NCBI GenBank assembly: GCA_029224465.1
Contig: JAQXUQ010000014.1
Location: 1-64,000 of the forward strand
From: Bacillota bacterium
GTDB lineage: Bacteria; Bacillota; Clostridia; Lachnospirales; Lachnospiraceae
Direction: 5' to 3'
DNA length: 64,000 bases
The notes beneath the pieces are model-generated. The model ran no database searches and was not told where the DNA came from. It saw only the letters and a list, made by a program, of their open reading frames with translations. The stretch's first letter is position 1. Each line of letters opens with the position of its first letter. The position numbers and the translations under genes are program-made. Shown in pieces: positions 27,374 through 60,341 of the stretch.

Positions 27374-29014
27374 ATGCAAGTTGCAACAGGTACCAGTATT
27401 CTGAACGGCATTGCCATCGGAAAAATCAAGATTTACAAGGCTCCGGTCTATAAGATTGATGAATCCCTGGTGAATGATCCGATTCCGGAACTCAAACGTT
27501 TTGAAGATGCCCGCGTGAAGGCGCAGGATCAGCAGAACGTTCTGTATGAGAAGGCGGTGGAGAGTGCCGGAGAGGACAGCGCCGCTATTTTCCAGTTCCA
27601 CGCGGACATGCTGGATGACGACGATCTTCTCGACGCGGTCAAGACCATTATTGTTGATCAGCATCATACTGCCGAGTACGCTGCCAAGCAGGGCTTCGAG
27701 AATGTTGCGGAAATGTTCAAGGAGATGGACGATCCGTATTTCCAGGCAAGGAGCGCGGATGTCATCGATGTGGGAAACGCGGTTATCGAATACCTCCTTG
27801 GTATTGATACGACGAGTCTGCAGGGGACGGAACCCACGATTCTTGTCGCGGAAGACCTGGCGCCGTCGGAAACCGTCAAGCTTGACAAGTCGCTGCTTCT
27901 CGGCATGATTACCAGAGAGGGCAGCTCCAACAGCCATACGGCGATTCTTGCGCGAAGCATGAATCTGCCAGCTCTGATTCAGTGCAAACAGATCAGTGAT
28001 GACTGGGACGGAAAGTTCGCGATTCTCGACGGGTACAACTCCTGCGTTTATATTGATCCAACGCAGGATCTGATTGATTCACTGACCGCCAAGCATAATG
28101 AGGACCTGCGCAAGGAAGCGCTTTTGCAGGAACTGAAGGGCAAAACAAATACAACGATCGATGGAAAAACGATCAAGGTGTTTGCCAATATCGGCGGACC
28201 CTCCGATGTCGGCGCGGTACAGCAGAATGACGCGGAAGGCGTCGGTTTGTTCCGTTCGGAGTTTGTTTATCTGAACAGTCCGGAAGATCCTTCGGAGGAG
28301 ACGCAGTTCCTCGCATATAAGAGGGTGCTCGAAACACTTGCACCGAAGCTGGTCGTCATCCGGACCTGTGATATCGGCGCCGACAAGACGATTGACTACA
28401 TGAACCTTGATAAAGAGGTCAATCCGGCGCTGGGCTACCGGGCGATCCGCATTTGTTTGACCAGAAAGGACTTCTTCAAGAGACAGCTGCGGGCGCTTCT
28501 GCGGGCATCGGTCTATGGCAATCTGGGAATTATGTTCCCGATGATCATCAGTGTCCGGGAAGTCCGTGAGTGCAAGGAGATACTTGCGGAATGTAAGAGA
28601 GAGCTTGAGAATGAAGGGCAGAAATACAGCGATAAAATACAGGTCGGTATTATGATCGAGACGCCGGCGGCAGCACTATGCGCCGATGAGCTTGCTTCCG
28701 AGGTCGATTTCTTCTCTCTCGGGACGAATGATCTGACACAGTACACCTGCGCGATTGACCGGCAGAACGCCAAGCTGGAGCCGTTCGCGGATACACATCA
28801 TCCTGCTGTGATGAAGGAAATCAAGATGACGATCGACGCGGCACACAGGCACGGCATATGGGCCGGCATCTGCGGCGAGCTCGGCGCGGATCCTACTCTC
28901 ACGGAGACGTTCCTCCGGATGGGCGTTGACGAGCTGTCTGTCAATGCCAAAAGCGTGCTTCCTCTGCGGAAGAAGATCCGCAGCATTGATCTTTCCAAAC
29001 CGGTACAGCAGTAA
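27374..29014 (+). CDS. ptsI: PTS enzyme I
   Basis: 546 residues. The swivelling domain holds the phosphorylated His188 in GSSNSHTAILAR, and the PEP-binding barrel has GLFRSEFVY, NPALGYRAIR and SLGTNDLTQYTCAIDRQN. It moves phosphate from PEP to HPr in the cytoplasm and is slightly shorter than the usual 570 residues. The ribosome-binding site is AAGGGGGAA; its GGGGGAA could pair with the TTCCCCC in the second hairpin loop of the candidate small RNA at 19404-19555. It is the last gene of the block and ends at a hairpin shared with convergent murG. Confidence 0.96.
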   Translation: MQVATGTSILNGIAIGKIKIYKAPVYKIDESLVNDPIPELKRFEDARVKAQDQQNVLYEKAVESAGEDSAAIFQFHADMLDDDDLLDAVKTIIVDQHHTAEYAAKQGFENVAEMFKEMDDPYFQARSADVIDVGNAVIEYLLGIDTTSLQGTEPTILVAEDLAPSETVKLDKSLLLGMITREGSSNSHTAILARSMNLPALIQCKQISDDWDGKFAILDGYNSCVYIDPTQDLIDSLTAKHNEDLRKEALLQELKGKTNTTIDGKTIKVFANIGGPSDVGAVQQNDAEGVGLFRSEFVYLNSPEDPSEETQFLAYKRVLETLAPKLVVIRTCDIGADKTIDYMNLDKEVNPALGYRAIRICLTRKDFFKRQLRALLRASVYGNLGIMFPMIISVREVRECKEILAECKRELENEGQKYSDKIQVGIMIETPAAALCADELASEVDFFSLGTNDLTQYTCAIDRQNAKLEPFADTHHPAVMKEIKMTIDAAHRHGIWAGICGELGADPTLTETFLRMGVDELSVNAKSVLPLRKKIRSIDLSKPVQQ

Positions 29015-29021
29015 AAACATA

Positions 29022-29062
29022 CAGGCACTGTTTTCACCGAAACTTCGTGAAAACAGTGCCTG
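29022..29062. terminator. Bidirectional terminator between ptsI and murG
   Basis: Perfect 16-bp stem (29022-29037/29047-29062) with a 9-nt loop. It is flanked by A-rich sequence on the left and T-rich on the right, so it can serve both convergent genes. Confidence 0.8.
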
Positions 29063-29069
29063 CAGTTTC

Positions 29070-30131
29070 TCATTTCTTTGTATATTCTTCAATCAGCCCC
29101 ATGATAATCTTCGTGGAATTGATCTGGGAACTTTCCGCCATCCTGTCTATATACTTCTGACGGTTTTCATACAATTCATGAACCTTTTCAAGAATCACAT
29201 CCGGAAGGTCATCGTCACTGACGCAGATACTGTAACCTTGCTGCGCAAACGAGCTGGCGTTGAGCTTCTGGTCACCGCGGCCGGTCGGAAGCGGAACCAG
29301 AATGTTCGGCTTTTTCAGTGCCAGCAGTTCGCAGATTGCGTTCGCGCCCGCGCGGGAAATCACAATGTCCGCCATGGCATACAGATGGCAGAGATCTTCC
29401 TGCACGTATTCGAACTGCTTGTATCCGGGCGTTGTCAGCAGGAGATTATCCATCTTCTCTTTGCCGCAAAGATGCACAATCTGAAAATCCTGCAGCAGGG
29501 AGCCGAGGTTGTCGCGGATGGTTTTATTGACAGATGCAGCGCCAAGGCTGCCGCCGATGACCATCAGCACCGGTTTGTCTTTGGTGAAGCCGCAGATTTC
29601 TCTGCCTTTCTCCGCATCTCCGCGAAAAAGCTCGGCGCGGATCGGGGTTCCGGTCAGCACAGCCTTTTCTGCGGGCAGATCCCGCATTGTCTCCGGGAAG
29701 TTGCAGCAGACTTTGACGGCAAACGGCGTGCAGAGCTTGTTCGCGAGGCCGGGCGTCATATCGGATTCGTGGCAGATCGACGGGACATGGCAGGCGGCAG
29801 CCGCCTGTACGACCGGGACGCTGACATAACCGCCTTTGGAAAAGACAATATCCGGTTTCCACTGGTGCATAAAGTGGTGTGCCTGGGAGAAGCCTCTGGC
29901 GACACGGAACGGATCAGTAAAGTTCTTCGGATCAAAATAACGGCGGAACTTTCCCGTCTCAATTGCCAGATACGGGATTCCGCAGTCTTCAATCAGTGAT
30001 TTCTCAATGCCGTTTATCGAACCGATATAGTAAATGTCATAGCCCGCGTCTTTCAGGCAGGGAATCAGCGCGAGATTCGGTGTAACATGACCGGCAGTGC
30101 CTCCGCCGGTCAGAACAATCTTCTTGGACAT
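29070..30131 (-). CDS. murG: MurG, lipid II synthase (UDP-GlcNAc transferase)
   Basis: 353 residues from the ATG at 30131 (minus strand), preceded by AGAAGGAAAG. The GT28 signature GGGTAGHVTPNLAL opens the protein; FSKGGYVSVPVV and HESDMTPGLANK lie in the N-domain, and GGSLGAASVN and SRAGANAICELLALKKPNILVPLP bind UDP-GlcNAc. It adds GlcNAc to lipid I on the inner membrane face during peptidoglycan synthesis. It stands alone here, away from the usual mur/division cluster, so it may be a second copy. A TATAAT (minus strand, 30171-30176) is a probable -10. The first residues follow the family start, so upstream extensions are not used. Confidence 0.93.
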   Translation of the reverse strand: MSKKIVLTGGGTAGHVTPNLALIPCLKDAGYDIYYIGSINGIEKSLIEDCGIPYLAIETGKFRRYFDPKNFTDPFRVARGFSQAHHFMHQWKPDIVFSKGGYVSVPVVQAAAACHVPSICHESDMTPGLANKLCTPFAVKVCCNFPETMRDLPAEKAVLTGTPIRAELFRGDAEKGREICGFTKDKPVLMVIGGSLGAASVNKTIRDNLGSLLQDFQIVHLCGKEKMDNLLLTTPGYKQFEYVQEDLCHLYAMADIVISRAGANAICELLALKKPNILVPLPTGRGDQKLNASSFAQQGYSICVSDDDLPDVILEKVHELYENRQKYIDRMAESSQINSTKIIMGLIEEYTKK

Positions 30132-30437
30132 ATCTTTCCTTCTCATTCCTTCGTTATAAGCAGTGCCTTTATTATACGCTTTTGTTACAAATTTGTGTCG
30201 GAAAAATAAGGAAAGCGGGACACCACAAGGACATGTGAACAAATCGCGCATCGCCCGGTTCCGGATCCGGACAGCAGACACAGGTGGAACGGAATACGTA
30301 AGCGTATTTGCCCCTTTTGCGGGTCGAAAGAACACAGGAAAATACATAACTGATAGATGACACAAGGAACAAAGTAATAAATATACATTATTTAAACGAT
30401 AGATTCCGATCAATTACACTGCTGACATCACACATAT

Positions 30438-30455
30438 GGATGGGAGGCACCATCC
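30438..30455 (+). other. Small hairpin before the giant surface protein
   Basis: GGATGG (30438-30443) pairs with CCATCC (30450-30455), just ahead of the AGGAGG ribosome-binding site (30463-30468). The rest of the gap 30132-30437 shows the murG promoter on the minus strand and AT-rich sequence (about 30380-30400) that may hold the promoter for the surface protein, but no convincing boxes. Confidence 0.45.
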
Positions 30456-30472
30456 GGACGACAGGAGGGCTC

Positions 30473-33400
30473 ATGAAAAAAGGGAGCAAAAAAACTAATA
30501 GCGGCTTTATGTGCTGCTGCCATGCTTGCATCGACTGCAGTTTCCAATCTGCCGGCGGTTCCGGTTCTGGCGAAAACAGGTACTGACCAGACTGCATCCG
30601 GACAGGCGAGTACGCCGGCCGCCGAGGTCGCGGAGAGCGCCGGGAGTCAGAATACAGATGCCGGTGATGCTGATTCAAATCATCAGGGCGAGGAGATCAG
30701 CACGGCGGACGAAACAAATCAGACTGCAGGCGAAAGCGCCGGAAGTGCCGATGCAGATGGACAAAGCGTGTCCGGAGAAACCGGGGCAGCGGAGACGGAA
30801 GAACAAGATGCTGCCGGTGACACAGAGTCCGACACGCTGACAGTTCGTATCCATTATCAGGCGTCCGAAGGCGGCACAGTATCCTCGGACGGAGAAGATG
30901 CCGTGCTTACCCGCAGCGGTGAAAAACCGGTCCTTTCCGGCGTACAGGCATCCGCGCTTGACGGATATCAGTTTACCGGCTGGACTTTGGACGGCAATAC
31001 TGTCTCCGGAGACGCTGCATTTGTTCCGGAGATTGATCCCGGCCGATATTTTGGCGATGGTGATGTCCTTACCGATGCAACGGAGATTACATATACCGCA
31101 AATTTCAGCAAAGAAGAAATAAAGTATCCTGCGGTTGATTTTGGAGAGACAGACTTTACTGACGGATCGTCCGTAACGGTCAGCGCCCCCGAAGGCGCAT
31201 TTCCGGAAGGCGTGCGTCTTACCGTTTCGCGGGTGGACACTGGAGCAGTATTAGACGCGGCGAAGAAGGCTTCAGGGGATGATACTCTGACGGATGCCAA
31301 TGTTGCGGCCTACGACTTTGATTTTTATCTTGATGACACGCATGGCATTGAACCGCTGAAAGATATCACCGTAACGTTTAACGACTTAGCGGTAGAGGGA
31401 TCGGATCAGACAAAGGATCTTTCCCTGTATCACCTGCAAAACAACGCCGCTCCGGCAGAAGCAGTAGACACTTCCGCTATTACAGCTTCTTCTGTTCATG
31501 ACAAAACAGCGGATATTACCTTCAAGGCAGCCGACTTTTCAATTTATCTGGCAGTGCGCAGAGCGCCGGCAGCGGACGGTCCGTTCTGGATCAATGATGA
31601 TACGGCAACAAGATACGCAACGCTTGGGCAGGCTGTGGACGCGGCAGCAGAGGGCAATACGATTCACATGAGCGGCGATATTGCGGCAGAAGCTGTTGCA
31701 AATACGCCGGTTGGAAAAAACATTACGCTTGACGCCGCTTCGGATACCACGATCAGTGGGACCGGCAAAGGAATTACGCTGGAGAGCGGATCGAAGCTGA
31801 TGACGAGCGGCGGTGCTGTTTTGACGATGAGCGGGTATGCGACGGCGCTCACGGTTAATGAGGGCGCGCAGGTTACCGATGGCACCTATGTGTTCGATCA
31901 GGTGCAGACCGGAATTAACCTGAAGGGAACACTGTCCGGCACGGACCGCTCCGCGATGAAGGTCACCGTAAACGCTGTAAAAGGCTGCGTTGGAATCGAC
32001 ACAACCGGCAGCGATGTCAAATATTCGAATGTGACGCTCCTCTGGAACGGCGGACGGCAGGACGGCTGGACTTACCGCAACATGAACGCGGTAAATTCGC
32101 ATATCGAGATCAAGGATGTGTGGCTTTATAACAGCGCGGCAAATCCTCTGCATCTGGAGAACAGTTATTTTAAGATCAGTGGAAGATTCAATCAGGACAG
32201 CTGGAGAGGCGGACACGTTCTGGCTGTATACGAAGCAGGTGCCGAGTTCAAAGATTCGACGGTTGTTGTTGACGGCTCTAGGATCAACGTGATCAACCGG
32301 GACGGACTTACTCTGACCAACTCGGACGTTACTGTGCAGAACAGCCCGGACGGCGGATTCAATATCAATTACGGCGCCTCCCTGATTGTGCATGATTCCA
32401 CCATAAAAAGTGTCAATGTGAAGAAAGCGCTTATTGCCGCCGGATACAACAATCCGTCAAATCTGATCATCGACGGTTCATCCGTGATTGAGACGGAGGG
32501 CATCAGCTCTGCCGACAGTATCGGCGTTGACGGAAATTATTACGTGACCGGCGGCACTTACAGGCTCCATGAAGCGTCACTCGCTGGAAATGACGGGCTG
32601 ATCCCCACCAACGGACCGGCAAACGGAAATGAAAAGCTGACTTACTTTACGCTTTCAGACAGTGCTGCCACGCAGCTGCAGATTCTGAACAAGAATGGAG
32701 AATACTATACCTATCCTGTCGGGAAAGCCAATGAAGACGGCGTCAAACGGGTGTGGGCACCGCAGGCAGAAGTTGTTTTCCGGCTCAATAACAGTGATGC
32801 CAAGTTTGCGGACAGCACATCACAGGAAAAGAGCGGCAAAACAATCCGCGGCTATTCACTGCGTTTCGTTCAGGGGAATGCAGATCCCGGTACGCCGGTA
32901 AGCAAAGACAGGTTCCTCGGCTGGTACTACAAGGACAAGCAGGGCAATGAAATTCCGTTCACGATGGACACGGCGGTGAACGCTGATACGGAAGTTTATG
33001 CCAAGTGGAACAATTCTTTTGTAGTCTATCATAACGGGCAGGGAAAATCGTTCCTACAGAGTGCCGGCGCCGGCGCGAAGGAAGCCGTTGTCCGGGACTA
33101 CGCCGAGCTGGCCGGCGAAGATTCCGGCTTCTTTGTAGAAGGCAAAATATTTGAATACTGGACAACCGCGGAAGACGGCAGCGGAAAGCATTATCAGAAA
33201 GGTGACAAAATAGCATTTGCCGAAGGGCAGACCCAGATTGATCTTTACGCGAATTATCGGAAGGAACAGTATACGGTAAGCTTTTCTGCAAATGGCGGTA
33301 CCTTCAGTGAGGGCTCTGTCTACAAAGATCCGAAATACTTTGACCTTCATACAGACAAGTACGGCGGAGAGGTCGCGGTGCTGAAGCAGACCGCGGTCTA

Positions 33401-36008
33401 TGGTCAGAAGCTGCATGATCTGACGCAGGCGCTCGGACTGGACTATAATCTGCTGAAACCCGATACCGCTGCAAAACTTTCATGGAACCAGCTGGAGGAT
33501 ACAGCAAACTGGGGAACAACCGCGTTTGGCGGTACAAGAATCCGGTTTGATGATTATAAATTGTGGTTTTTTACCGTTAACGGAGAGAATCCGACGATTA
33601 CAGATAATGTCACCTACTATCTGCAGTGGAAGCCGGACGCGAAGAAATCCGGTCTCAGCGGCAGCTTCGTTCTGCAGGGAGATCTCTGGCACGAGGGGAT
33701 CAGCAAACCTTCGAAGGCGACAACAATCAGTAAATCCGTCAAAACAGGAGATGCGGTCAGCCTGACAGCGGGTGTTGATGTCACGCCGGTCAAAGAAAAA
33801 ATCGGCGAGATTGCGAGAGTGCTGGATGTAGAAGAAAACGAATACAATACAATCAGGATCAACGCGCCGAAATGCGTTCTTACGGCATCTTTTGAGATTC
33901 CGGACGGCTTTTCGATTCCGGACAAGAACAAAATCAAAGCGGAAGCCAAGGGGCTGGGGGAATGTTTTGACCTGGAAGAGCCGGAAATCAGCGGCAGAAC
34001 GATTACAGTCCGTTTCAGCTTAAAGCCCGGCATGACAGATTTTGAAAAACTGTATAAAGCGGTCAGCAGCACCGGGACGACTTCAGAGCAGCCGGGTGAG
34101 AATTGGATTACGCTGAGGATTTCCGGATTGCAGATTAATGGAGAGAACGTTCATGATCTCGACATTCTGACAATCAAAGGAATGGTCGGCGGCAATTTTA
34201 CCGCGACTGCCGTGAGAGGTGAGAAATCAAAGGCGCAGGCACCGAAAATGGCTTTTGCCAGTGTACGGATGGCCGCACCGCAGGCACAGGCGGCAGAGCA
34301 GGCGCTCTCGTTTGATTTTACATTCGACGGGCAGCAGTCCAAAGGCGGAAAGGACATGAGGGGCAGTGATGGTATTACCCTTTCTTTCCGGCTGAACAAA
34401 CCGGCACAGCTGGTTCTTCCGGGAGATCTGACAACCGAAGACGCGAACGGTATGTATGACAGCAGAGCGATCCGTGACGCAGTTCCCGGCGAGTCCCTTA
34501 CCTTTGTCGGGCGGCTGGATGTCTCCGGCATTAAAAACCAGATTCAGTATATGCAGGGCGCGGCGCAGGAACACAAAATCCGGAATGTCACAAGTAAGTT
34601 TGTAACGACGCTGCACCTGGGAAACGGTATTCTGCCGGACAGTGACCTCGACGGGATTACGCTGACAGACAACAGCCTTTTCAAGATTTCGGACAAGGCT
34701 GTGAACGGCTCCGATGTTACAATTACGATGGAGCTTTTGACGAAGGATTATTCGAGTTTCAAGAAGCTTCAGCAAGATGTTCAGGATGTTCCGGACGTTC
34801 TGGAAATCCGCGTTCCTGCCGCTGTTTCCGAAAATCCTCCGGTTTCCGGCAAGATTCTTTCCGCCGGTACGGTGACCGGAGAATTCCATGCCGAGGTAGT
34901 GGACGACGATTCGGAAACGGTTCTTGCAGAGCCTTCCTACACCTGGCATTCCGAGCAGGCTGTCAATTCGGAAAAACTTGGAAACGGACAAAATGAAGAC
35001 CGGGATGCGGAGGAAGGAGAAATAACGTATACCGTCAGAATCCCCGAGGCAAACAAGCTGCCGGCGGATATTCTGATCAATGATGACACAGAGAACAAAT
35101 CGGTTTACACGGCAGCGGTCGATGAGGCGCTGACCTACAAAGCAAAAGTCGATGTCACGCCGGTGCAGCAGGAGATGATAGAAATTGAAAACTCGTTCGG
35201 CGTAACTTCGGATGAGCAATTCCGGAACATCGAGCTTTCCGGAGTAAGCTGCCGGTTCCGGGCGAGGCTTCAGGTTCCGGAAGAACTCTGGAGCGTATGG
35301 CCGAAGGAGAAAGGCAGCTACAGTCTGGAAAACCCGGACGGAACCCCGGCCGGCGCATTTACAATCACGGATGTGACAACCGATCAGCATACGATCGTTG
35401 TGTACATGGGCCTGAACGGATTCTGGGATGGAAACGGGACCTATGACCAGCTTCATAAAGCTGTTATGGAAGTCACGAAGCAGGAGCTGATTCTGAAGGT
35501 TAGTTCCTTCCGTGTCCCGGCTTCGATTCCCCGGGATCAGCGGATCAGCGTATACGGAACAGTGAACGGATCGATGCAGTCAAGAGCAAGAAAGAGCGTA
35601 TCGCCGTTTAATAGATTGCTTCGTGCGGCTGCGGACGCTCCGGAAAAGATTTTTACGTTTGCCTGGAGTTCCACGCAGATGGACGGAGGAAGCGATGCCG
35701 CTTATCCGGATGCCGCGGCGTCTTCGATCAGCGCGACATTTCAAGTTCCTTCTTCCGGAGAAAAACAATCCGATTCCACGGAAGGCACCTCCGGTCAATA
35801 CCAGGTATCTTCCCCGGCAGCTGCTGTACACCGGGCGGCAACTGTAAAGCCGGCGGCCCCTGCAGCACCTGTGAAGGCCACTGATCAAAAGGCTGTATCC
35901 ACTGGTGACAACAGTAAGATGATGCTTGATCTAGTGCTGCTGATTGCTTCCGGGACCTGCCTTGCGGCATGGGCTTTCCTGCGCAGAAGAAAAAGACATG
36001 GACAGTAA
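30473..36008 (+). CDS. Giant cell-wall surface protein; signal peptide offset by one A
   Basis: About 1,844 residues if read through one frameshift. The start at 30473 has AGGAGG upstream and begins MKKGSKK, but seven A at 30488-30494 put the hydrophobic core LIAALCAAAMLAS out of frame; six A would restore it. The long uninterrupted frame itself opens at 30522. A Thr/Glu/Asp-rich stalk comes first, then an InlB-type repeat (about 30840-31120), a right-handed beta-helix-like region (31590-32620) and two more InlB-type repeats (32760-33350). Three diverged copies of a domain of 210-250 residues follow (about 33650-35600). The C-terminus is a proline-rich linker, KAVSTGDNS, a hydrophobic segment and RRRKRHGQ, a variant sortase signal. 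Adhesion or matrix binding is likely; ligand unknown. Confidence 0.85.
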
Positions 36009-36127
36009 TCTGCTTTTCCATTCATAAAAAGTCTGTCCCCTTGTGTACAGGGAGCCGCCCATGCGCCGGATTGCATAGATAATCCAAGACAAATCCGGCG
36101 ACCCGCGTTGTATTGCCGCAAAAGCAA

Positions 36128-36156
36128 TTGCGTGTAATGCTCTGTCCGGGTACAAT
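36128..36156 (+). promoter_or_regulatory. Promoter of pgeF
   Basis: TTGCGT (36128-36133), 17-bp spacer, TACAAT (36151-36156). The predicted start point (about 36163) coincides with the ATG, so the message may be leaderless. Confidence 0.55.
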
Positions 36157-36162
36157 GGAAGC

Positions 36163-37044
36163 ATGAATTACATAAGAAAAGGCAGCCATCCAATTTTACA
36201 GGAACAAATCTACATAAACGAGGACGGGAGCAGACTTCCCGTCCTTGTTTTTCCTGCGCTGAATGCAGCCGGTTTTGTGCAGCACTGTTTTACCACAAGA
36301 CTGGGCGGCGTCAGCGACGGATATCTGGGCACGCTGAATCTGTCTTTTACAAGAGGTGACGATCCGGTCAACGTACACGAAAATTTCAAACGCGTCGGTG
36401 CGGTGTTCGGCAAGGGAGAGGAAGACTTTGTTCTGACCTGTCAGGAGCATCACACGAACGTACGGCGGGTCAGCAGAGAAGATGCCGGCGCGGGTGTCAC
36501 AAAACCGCTTCTGTGGACGGATGTCGACGGCCTGATCACGGATGAGCCGGGGATAATTCTCGGTACTTTTTTTGCGGATTGTGTCCCGCTTATGTTTGTC
36601 GATCCTGTGCACAGGGCAATCGGCGCGAGTCATTCCGGCTGGAGAGGAACCGCAGCGCGGATGGGCGCGGTGACGCTGAAGAGAATGCACGAGGAATTCG
36701 GGACGGAACCGGAAGACGTTCTGTGTGCGATCGGGCCTTCCATCTGCCGGGAACATTATGAAGTCAGTGATGAAGTCGCGGATTGTTTCCGGAAGGAATT
36801 TCCGGCGCATGTGCAGGAAATCCTGGAGGACAAGCATAACGGGCATGCCCAGCTGAATCTGTGGGAAGCCTGCCGGATTACACTTCTGGAAGCGGGGGGG
36901 TTGCCGCGGAACATCTTTGTTACGGATATTTGCACCTGTTGTAATCCGGAACTTCTGTTTTCGCACAGAGCAAGCCGCGGCAGGCGGGGCAACTTCGGCG
37001 GCTTTATTATGATTAAAGACGAGAAGAGCGCACAGGAGCATTGA
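36163..37044 (+). CDS. pgeF: PgeF/YfiH-family protein (peptidoglycan editing, purine nucleoside activity)
   Basis: 293 residues of the DUF152/Cu-oxidase_4 family. The metal-site motifs are all present: FTTRLGGVS, QEHHTNVRR with its histidine, TDVDGLITDEPGIILGTFFADCVPLMF, SHSGWRGT and GPSICREHYEV. Family members have been shown to act on purine nucleosides and, in E. coli, to keep L-Ser out of peptidoglycan precursors; older names call them laccases. The ATG at 36163 has no ribosome-binding site and sits at the predicted transcription start. A GH13 gene follows 15 bp downstream and is probably co-transcribed, although no functional link is known. Confidence 0.93.
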   Translation: MNYIRKGSHPILQEQIYINEDGSRLPVLVFPALNAAGFVQHCFTTRLGGVSDGYLGTLNLSFTRGDDPVNVHENFKRVGAVFGKGEEDFVLTCQEHHTNVRRVSREDAGAGVTKPLLWTDVDGLITDEPGIILGTFFADCVPLMFVDPVHRAIGASHSGWRGTAARMGAVTLKRMHEEFGTEPEDVLCAIGPSICREHYEVSDEVADCFRKEFPAHVQEILEDKHNGHAQLNLWEACRITLLEAGGLPRNIFVTDICTCCNPELLFSHRASRGRRGNFGGFIMIKDEKSAQEH

Positions 37045-45454: not shown

Positions 45455-46318
45455 ATGGCAGGAACATTATATCTTTGCGCGACACCGATCGGAAACCTCG
45501 GGGACATTACGCTGCGCGTTCTGGAGACTCTGAAAGAAGCCGATCTGATCGCGGCCGAGGATACGCGGAATACGCTGGGACTTCTGAATCATTACGGGAT
45601 TAAGAAACCGCTGACCAGCTACCACGAACATAATAAGTTCGAGAAGGCGGACGAACTGATACGCCAGCTTCTTCTCGGGAAAAACATCGCCGTCGTAACC
45701 GACGCCGGCACGCCCGCGATTTCCGATCCGGGAGAAGTACTTGCGGCAAAGTGTCTGGAACAGGGCATCCGCGTCACATCGCTGCCGGGCGCCTGCGCTC
45801 TGATTACGGCGCTTACGATGTCGGGCATGAGCGCAAGACGCTTTTGTTTTGAAGGCTTTCTTCCGCCGGACAAAAAGGAAAGAGCCCGCGTTCTGGAGCG
45901 GCTTTCCGGGGAGGAGCGGACGACGATTTTCTATGAAGCGCCGCACCATTTAAAGTCGACGCTGCGGGAACTGCTTTCTGCCGCGGGCGACCGGAAAATC
46001 ACGATCTGCAGGGAGCTGACCAAGAAATTCGAGGAAGCGGTGCCGACAACGCTACAGGGCGCTGTGGATTACTACGAAGAAAACGCGCCGCGGGGCGAAT
46101 ATGTTCTTGTGATTGCAGGCGCGGACCCGGAAGAAAATAAAAAGAGAAAAGAACAGGACTGGCAGAACCTTTCTCTGGAAGAGCATATGAAGATCTACGA
46201 GGACCGGGGCTTTGACAGAAAGGAAGCCATGAAGAAAGTCGCGGCGGACCGGGGTGTTTCCAAGAGAGATGTTTACAACGCACTTCTTTCAAAAAAACAG
46301 CCGGACGATCCTGCCTGA
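45455..46318 (+). CDS. rsmI: 16S rRNA (cytidine1402-2'-O)-methyltransferase
   Basis: 287 residues of the tetrapyrrole-methylase fold. The signatures are LYLCATPIGNLGDIT, AEDTRNT, VTDAGTPAISDPG and the SAM-site block LPGACALITAL. The C-terminal 40 residues (EEHMKIYEDRGFDRKEAMKKVAADRGVSKRDVYNALL) form the small RsmI helical domain. The enzyme methylates C1402 of 16S rRNA in the decoding centre. It ends the pyk-to-rsmI operon; a new promoter follows. Confidence 0.95.
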   Translation: MAGTLYLCATPIGNLGDITLRVLETLKEADLIAAEDTRNTLGLLNHYGIKKPLTSYHEHNKFEKADELIRQLLLGKNIAVVTDAGTPAISDPGEVLAAKCLEQGIRVTSLPGACALITALTMSGMSARRFCFEGFLPPDKKERARVLERLSGEERTTIFYEAPHHLKSTLRELLSAAGDRKITICRELTKKFEEAVPTTLQGAVDYYEENAPRGEYVLVIAGADPEENKKRKEQDWQNLSLEEHMKIYEDRGFDRKEAMKKVAADRGVSKRDVYNALLSKKQPDDPA

Positions 46319-60182: not shown

Positions 60183-60341
60183 AAAAAGACGGACACTTCC
60201 GGAGCCCTGCCAGGCACCCTTACGGCACATGAAAGGATCTGCTTAGTGCTGCTTCGTTCCCGATCTGACACGGTTCGCAGGATTCATTGCGCAAGACCCG
60301 GCAAGGCTGCGGAAATATCCGTCGGTCACAATGACGTGACA
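60183..60341 (-). ncRNA. ffs: Signal recognition particle RNA (bacterial 4.5S/scRNA type)
   Basis: Read on the minus strand, the apical domain GTGTCAGATCGGGAACGAAGCAGC has the GGAA tetraloop closed by TCG/CGA, the asymmetric loop and the AGCAGC motif that bind Ffh. The long helix forms from GACGGATATTTCCG at the 5' side (60323 downwards) and CGGAAGTGTCCGTC at the 3' end (60188), and further pairing runs through CTTGCCGGG/CCTGGCAGG. A run of T (60183-60187) terminates it. A small hairpin GTCAC/GTGAC lies at the 5' end. It follows tadA, as scr does in B. subtilis. It recruits translating ribosomes to the membrane as part of the signal recognition particle. Confidence 0.95.

Follow-up and report, generated by a model that had tools for sequence, protein, structure and literature searches.

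A giant surface-protein gene in the draft genome of a Lachnospiraceae bacterium (GenBank assembly GCA_029224465.1) is probably present in an 'off' form, generated by replication slippage as a one-base change in an A-tract within its signal-peptide codons. The gene lies in a window of 64,000 nucleotides (contig JAQXUQ010000014.1, positions 1 to 64,000), to which all coordinates refer. Here, a run of seven A residues at 30488-30494 separates the frame of the start codon from a long open frame. The frame break is a singleton at a short tract, known from one genome. The site most likely acts as a plain homopolymer contingency site of an accessory gene would, rather than as a dedicated, conserved switch.

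Start site and reading frames

The ribosome binding site AGGAGG (30463-30468, plus strand) is located 4 nt 5′ of an ATG at 30473, and the first-pass annotation was correct in describing these signals as the opening of a signal peptide, the core of which is read in the main frame. The ATG is directly followed by a run of six A (30476-30481, encoding Lys-Lys) and then by the A7 run, at which the start frame diverges from the main frame by a forward offset of one base. As had also been proposed, the start frame runs from there into a dead end, with a stop codon at 30584-30586 after 37 residues (30473-30586, plus strand, stop included). The main frame contains no stop codon between 30477 and 36005 and terminates at 36006-36008 on the plus strand; the open frame of more than 1,800 codons first noticed beyond the tract comprises 1,843 codons on translation. 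The two other frames of this stretch contain 77 and 83 stops, which identifies the main frame as a genuine coding sequence.

The first canonical start codon in the main frame, ATG 30522, would yield a protein of 1,828 amino acids. It lies within the hydrophobic core, has no ribosome binding site, and its use would remove the positively charged n-region and part of the core. This start, ATA 30498 and later candidates were rejected because they lack a ribosome binding site and cut the hydrophobic core; no such site was found before any later canonical start of the main frame. The Cys-rich 37-residue peptide was likewise rejected as a true small protein, as it results from out-of-frame reading of the stretch of Ala codons in the signal peptide. 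The gene has normal initiation signals, no usable later start and no further stop within its 1,843 codons. As in homopolymer-tract phase-variable genes, a homopolymer near the 5′ end of the coding sequence, here A7, determines by its length the frame in which a surface protein is read. Tandem repeats were not detected within 29000-37000. A search for sigma-70-type promoters within 30000-30700 also returned none, which is uninformative as about one would be expected by chance.

The encoded surface protein

Judging from its sequence and a structural model, the main frame appears to encode a sortase-type surface protein that carries a beta-helix piece together with an InlB-type repeat. The hydrophobic core and c-region of the signal peptide (LIAALCAAAMLAS...VPVLA; 30495-30572, plus strand) are present in the main frame only and were recognised by eye and by hydropathy, which peaks at 2.66 over 11 residues. 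The frame also contains an acidic low-complexity linker. A piece encoded at 31569-32876 (plus strand) was modelled by AlphaFold2 as a parallel beta-helix, with a mean pLDDT of 71.7 from an alignment of three sequences. Comparison of this piece with the PDB by Foldseek gave no match at E <= 0.001 (best 3.5e-3, with low TM-scores); the best 50 of 477 matches are mostly beta-helix proteins, including tailspikes, alginate lyases and the pneumococcal adhesin PfbA. By sequence, no relative of the surface protein was found in the PDB at E <= 1. The InlB-type repeat is recognised by PF09479 (Flg_new / InlB B-repeat) with 34.7 bits against a cut-off of 27 (E 2e-8).

The C-terminus, encoded at 35898-36005 (plus strand), consists on translation of STGD, a hydrophobic stretch and the basic sequence RRRKRHGQ, and several relatives end alike. 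We take this order of elements to be the typical end of a sortase substrate. Three sortases score over the cut-off in the same genome, so that both a sorting-signal-like end and candidate anchoring enzymes are present, with the signal peptide out of frame.

Genomic locus and its history

The surface gene is flanked on the left by a MurG-type glycosyltransferase gene (29070-30131, minus strand) and on the right by an intact laccase-type gene of the Cu-oxidase_4 family (36163-37044, plus strand), both assigned by Pfam. Between the MurG-type gene and the surface gene lies a remnant of a PD-(D/E)XK transposase-family (PDDEXK_2) gene (30244-30345, minus strand). DNA of the region is matched in 54 of 62 genomes of the genus, own genome included, mostly on the MurG side, and the junctions were examined in three of these, G032, G027 and G020. 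In G027 and G020 the MurG-type and laccase-type genes are direct neighbours, with about 120 and 220 bp between their starts, constituting an empty site. Of the relatives found, G032 is the closest, with a MurG 96.9% identical. Its contig on the MurG side (C21) breaks off within a PD-(D/E)XK (PDDEXK_2) transposase-family gene, of which it contains the C-terminal half; the contig on the laccase side (C24) likewise breaks off in such a gene, with the N-terminal 50 residues present, and no surface-protein sequence was found at either end. The same repeat is present at the ends of three further G032 contigs (C20, C30 and C32) and this genome is 87% complete; the content of the G032 interval is therefore deduced from its two ends, and a copy of the surface gene may have been lost in the gap. 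From this arrangement we infer that the surface gene was gained after the split from G032, replacing most of the transposase-family gene. As the three congeners examined show either an empty site or a different gene at this position, the surface gene appears to be accessory and lineage-specific.

A dispersed repeat of 61 bp lies on the 3′ side of the surface gene (36063-36123). It has three matches in contig C10 and a shorter one in contig C6 of the same genome, and a further match in contig C11 of G032; none is present at the laccase-side contig end of G032. At another locus (L089), one copy precedes a PD-(D/E)XK transposase-like ORF by about 160 bp in the same relative orientation. Elsewhere in the window, a bacterial small SRP RNA is encoded at 60205-60303 on the minus strand (RF00169, 65.3 bits).

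Relatives of the surface protein

Searches with the protein gave matches in 11 of the 62 genus genomes and, at E <= 1e-40, in 3 of 397 genomes of the family, both counts including the genome under study. Two partial relatives are encoded elsewhere in the same genome, on contigs C26 and C31. A readable 5′ end is available for ten relatives (one each in G002, own C26, own C31, G031, G036, hRUG896, G300 and G066, and two in G046), several of which match part of the protein only. In all ten, the signal peptide is in frame as judged by eye, and the N-terminus is thus expected to be used. None has a run of at least seven A in its first 60 nt, and two (own C31 and G300) have a run of six; the A7 tract is therefore not a family-wide feature, and the clustering of frameshifts that would mark a conserved tract is absent from these ten genes.

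One of these relatives (L054, on contig C139 of G036, at about 3332) combines an in-frame signal peptide with a single early TAA in the linker, and this nonsense codon suggests outright loss of such genes as a further outcome. The one match in a scan of the genome_contigs collection was a named relative from an uncultured Lachnospiraceae bacterium, 43% identical over about 140 residues; the 5′ end of the surface gene had no match in the viral_contigs collection. Very similar signal-peptide DNA is found, in frame, at the start of a lipoprotein-like gene in G028 (L065, contig C201), a genome with no match to the surface protein.

Rarity and reliability of the A7 tract

Runs of exactly seven A occur three times in the window, and longer ones do not occur. 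The pattern ATG-AAR-AAR followed by A7 within 18 nt has one match genome-wide, the tract at 30488-30494; since a reversed control pattern also has one, this count alone is not beyond chance. In a 371 kb sample of the genome, runs of at least six A have a density of 1.35/kb in the 60 nt that open each gene compared to 0.165/kb in the remainder, an approximately eightfold difference. The count is based on 161 well-started genes out of 295 ORFs (134 without a good start were left out) and excludes the tract at 30488-30494 itself, as the gene finder cannot start the long frame at 30473. It comprises 13 gene-start runs, all of exactly six, and none of seven or more in the 161 genes. An A6 run near a gene start is thus ordinary in this genome, and an A7 run is unusual.

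The assembly is a draft of 34 contigs (completeness 95.89, contamination 4.42). Its homopolymers of at least six bases were scored by the coding frame on either side in 371,125 of 2,549,340 bases, skipping runs less than 160 nt from the ends of a sampled contig stretch; the tract at 30488-30494 was itself not flagged. The 39 runs of at least seven bases comprise 11 that are scorable, 27 unclear ones and one at a strand change, and the frame is kept at all 11, which makes a general homopolymer problem unlikely. Among 153 runs of six, 42 are in frame, 103 unclear, one at a strand change and seven apparently shifted. On inspection, five of these seven proved to be starts of a downstream gene; the remaining two (C26:39769 and 39958) flank a likely ORF-ORF junction, where one broken gene is possible. 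None of the seven is a clear error within a gene, with two not fully resolved. A separate frame-switch scan gave 11 provisional candidates, none of which coincides, in the stretches displayed, with a homopolymer of at least six bases. Within the window, the T7 and G7 runs of the laccase-type gene and a C7 run in ftsH lie inside intact family matches, and another A7, at 46291-46297, falls just past the matched part of an rRNA methyltransferase gene and provides no test of accuracy. The A count at 30488-30494 is therefore probably real.

Comparison with known systems

Surface-protein genes whose reading frame depends on the length of a short 5′ poly-A tract are already known, and the present site matches this kind in part, as its tract is not conserved among relatives. 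The closest parallel is inlA of Listeria monocytogenes, where the length of a 5′ A7/A6 tract sets the frame, both alleles occur in nature and the frameshift arose at least twice (PMC2831843). As in inlA, an A6/A7 tract lies near the start of a large surface protein and the alternative frame gives a short dead-end peptide (8 amino acids in inlA, 37 here). The polarity is opposite, however, since A7 is the in-frame and A6 the off form in inlA, whereas A7 is off here; furthermore, inlA is known from strains with both lengths and from measured rates, while the present tract is known from one genome. In inlA fusions, the change from A6 to A7 occurred at about 5.5e-7 and that from A7 to A6 at about 3.9e-8, the latter, slow direction resting on a single revertant (PMC2831843). 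A poly-A tract in p78 of Mycoplasma fermentans, a different gene in a different organism, is cited as a site of slipped-strand phase variation (PMC3711429).

In Clostridioides difficile, the switch that controls CwpV is a DNA inversion. CwpV is phase variable, is the largest member of a clostridial cell-wall-protein family and is described as having a novel genetic switch (PMC2784873); at the present locus no inverted repeats were found within 30100-30700. Among the open-licence papers listed, we found no short 5′ poly-A frame switch of a surface protein in Lachnospiraceae or gut metagenomes.

Origin and consequences of the frame break

The first-pass annotation had called the arrangement a classic layout of phase variation. 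Its anatomy and the inlA precedent bear this out in part; 'classic' is too strong for a short tract that none of the ten relatives shares. Under the explanation we consider probable, replication slippage, the most economical origin for a single-base difference, would have altered the A-tract by one base within the signal-peptide codons. Ribosomes would start at ATG 30473, make the 37-residue peptide and stop, and no surface protein would be exported from the A7 form. As the lesion consists of tract length, it is reversible in principle, and the 'off' form may revert at low frequency, as measured for inlA; given the slow change from A7 to A6 in that gene, reversion of the A7 form here would be rare.

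The main rival to a slippage 'off' allele, although an unlikely one, is an error of base calling or assembly, with the true tract in frame and the gene simply on. Singleton frameshifts are considered likely to be indel mutations or sequencing errors, whereas clustered ones may reflect phase variation or programmed events (PMC3711429). The break affects one site in a draft assembly, all ten relatives with a visible 5′ end are in frame there, and at gene starts A6 is common and A7 absent from the 161 genes counted. Against an error stand the intact frames at all 11 scorable long runs, the seven six-base-run shifts without a clear within-gene error and the 11 provisional frame-switch candidates, none at a homopolymer of at least six bases in the stretches displayed. 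Of the error first raised as the dull alternative, the systematic form is thus unlikely, and a slip at this single site keeps a modest probability. Selection could instead maintain the A-tract as a dedicated switch in a population of mixed on and off cells. The 5′ position, the A-rich start, the surface location of the product and the inlA precedent are in its favour; with A7 absent from the start of every relative, A6 in two of ten, a short tract, and a single genome in which no length variation is observable, we regard such a switch as improbable.

Recoding at A7, by transcriptional slippage or +1 ribosomal frameshifting, would yield a fraction of full-length protein and is very unlikely. 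Lys tRNA could conceivably re-pair on A7 after a forward slip of one base, poly-A is slippery for both ribosomes and RNA polymerase, and a dnaX gene that contains seven A has been proposed to use slippage (PMC3711429). In Buchnera, homopolymer tracts account for more than half of single-base deletions in transcripts, and the rate rises with tract length (PMC5574713). However, the frames require a forward shift, so backward (-1) slippage would not help, and no context shared among relatives for forward ribosomal slippage was found, nor is A7 common to them. Transcriptional slippage, proposed in the first-pass annotation, is disfavoured. Nine A is often its threshold, as judged from visible selection against slippage at that length in a large proportion of genomes, and a pattern of eight A has been called non-slippery (PMC1088944). 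Transcription in A runs mostly inserts a base (PMC5574713), and one inserted base cannot join these frames, making it a poor rescue. Programmed slippage typically shows, beside the long run, a conserved two-ORF layout; here there are seven A, and in all ten relatives the signal peptide lies in a single frame. Least probable is plain decay, in which A7 would be the first lesion of a gene becoming a pseudogene. The accessory nature of the gene and the early nonsense codon of the G036 relative would fit decay, but no other stop interrupts the 1,843 codons.

Implications

A more elaborate form of the slippage explanation, which we hold to be unlikely, would place an inlA-like contingency switch in control of a newly gained giant beta-helix protein of this Lachnospiraceae-like commensal, at a former site of a PD-(D/E)XK transposase-family gene, such that the population always contains a few cells displaying it. 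If reads show no mixture of tract lengths, the locus counsels caution, since a frame that breaks at a short A run in one genome usually reflects an ordinary off form or a slip in base calling. If they do show mixed lengths, the giant protein on the surface of a common kind of anaerobe would be under simple mutational on/off control. A contingency switch of the inlA type would then exist in a lineage for which we found no described case.
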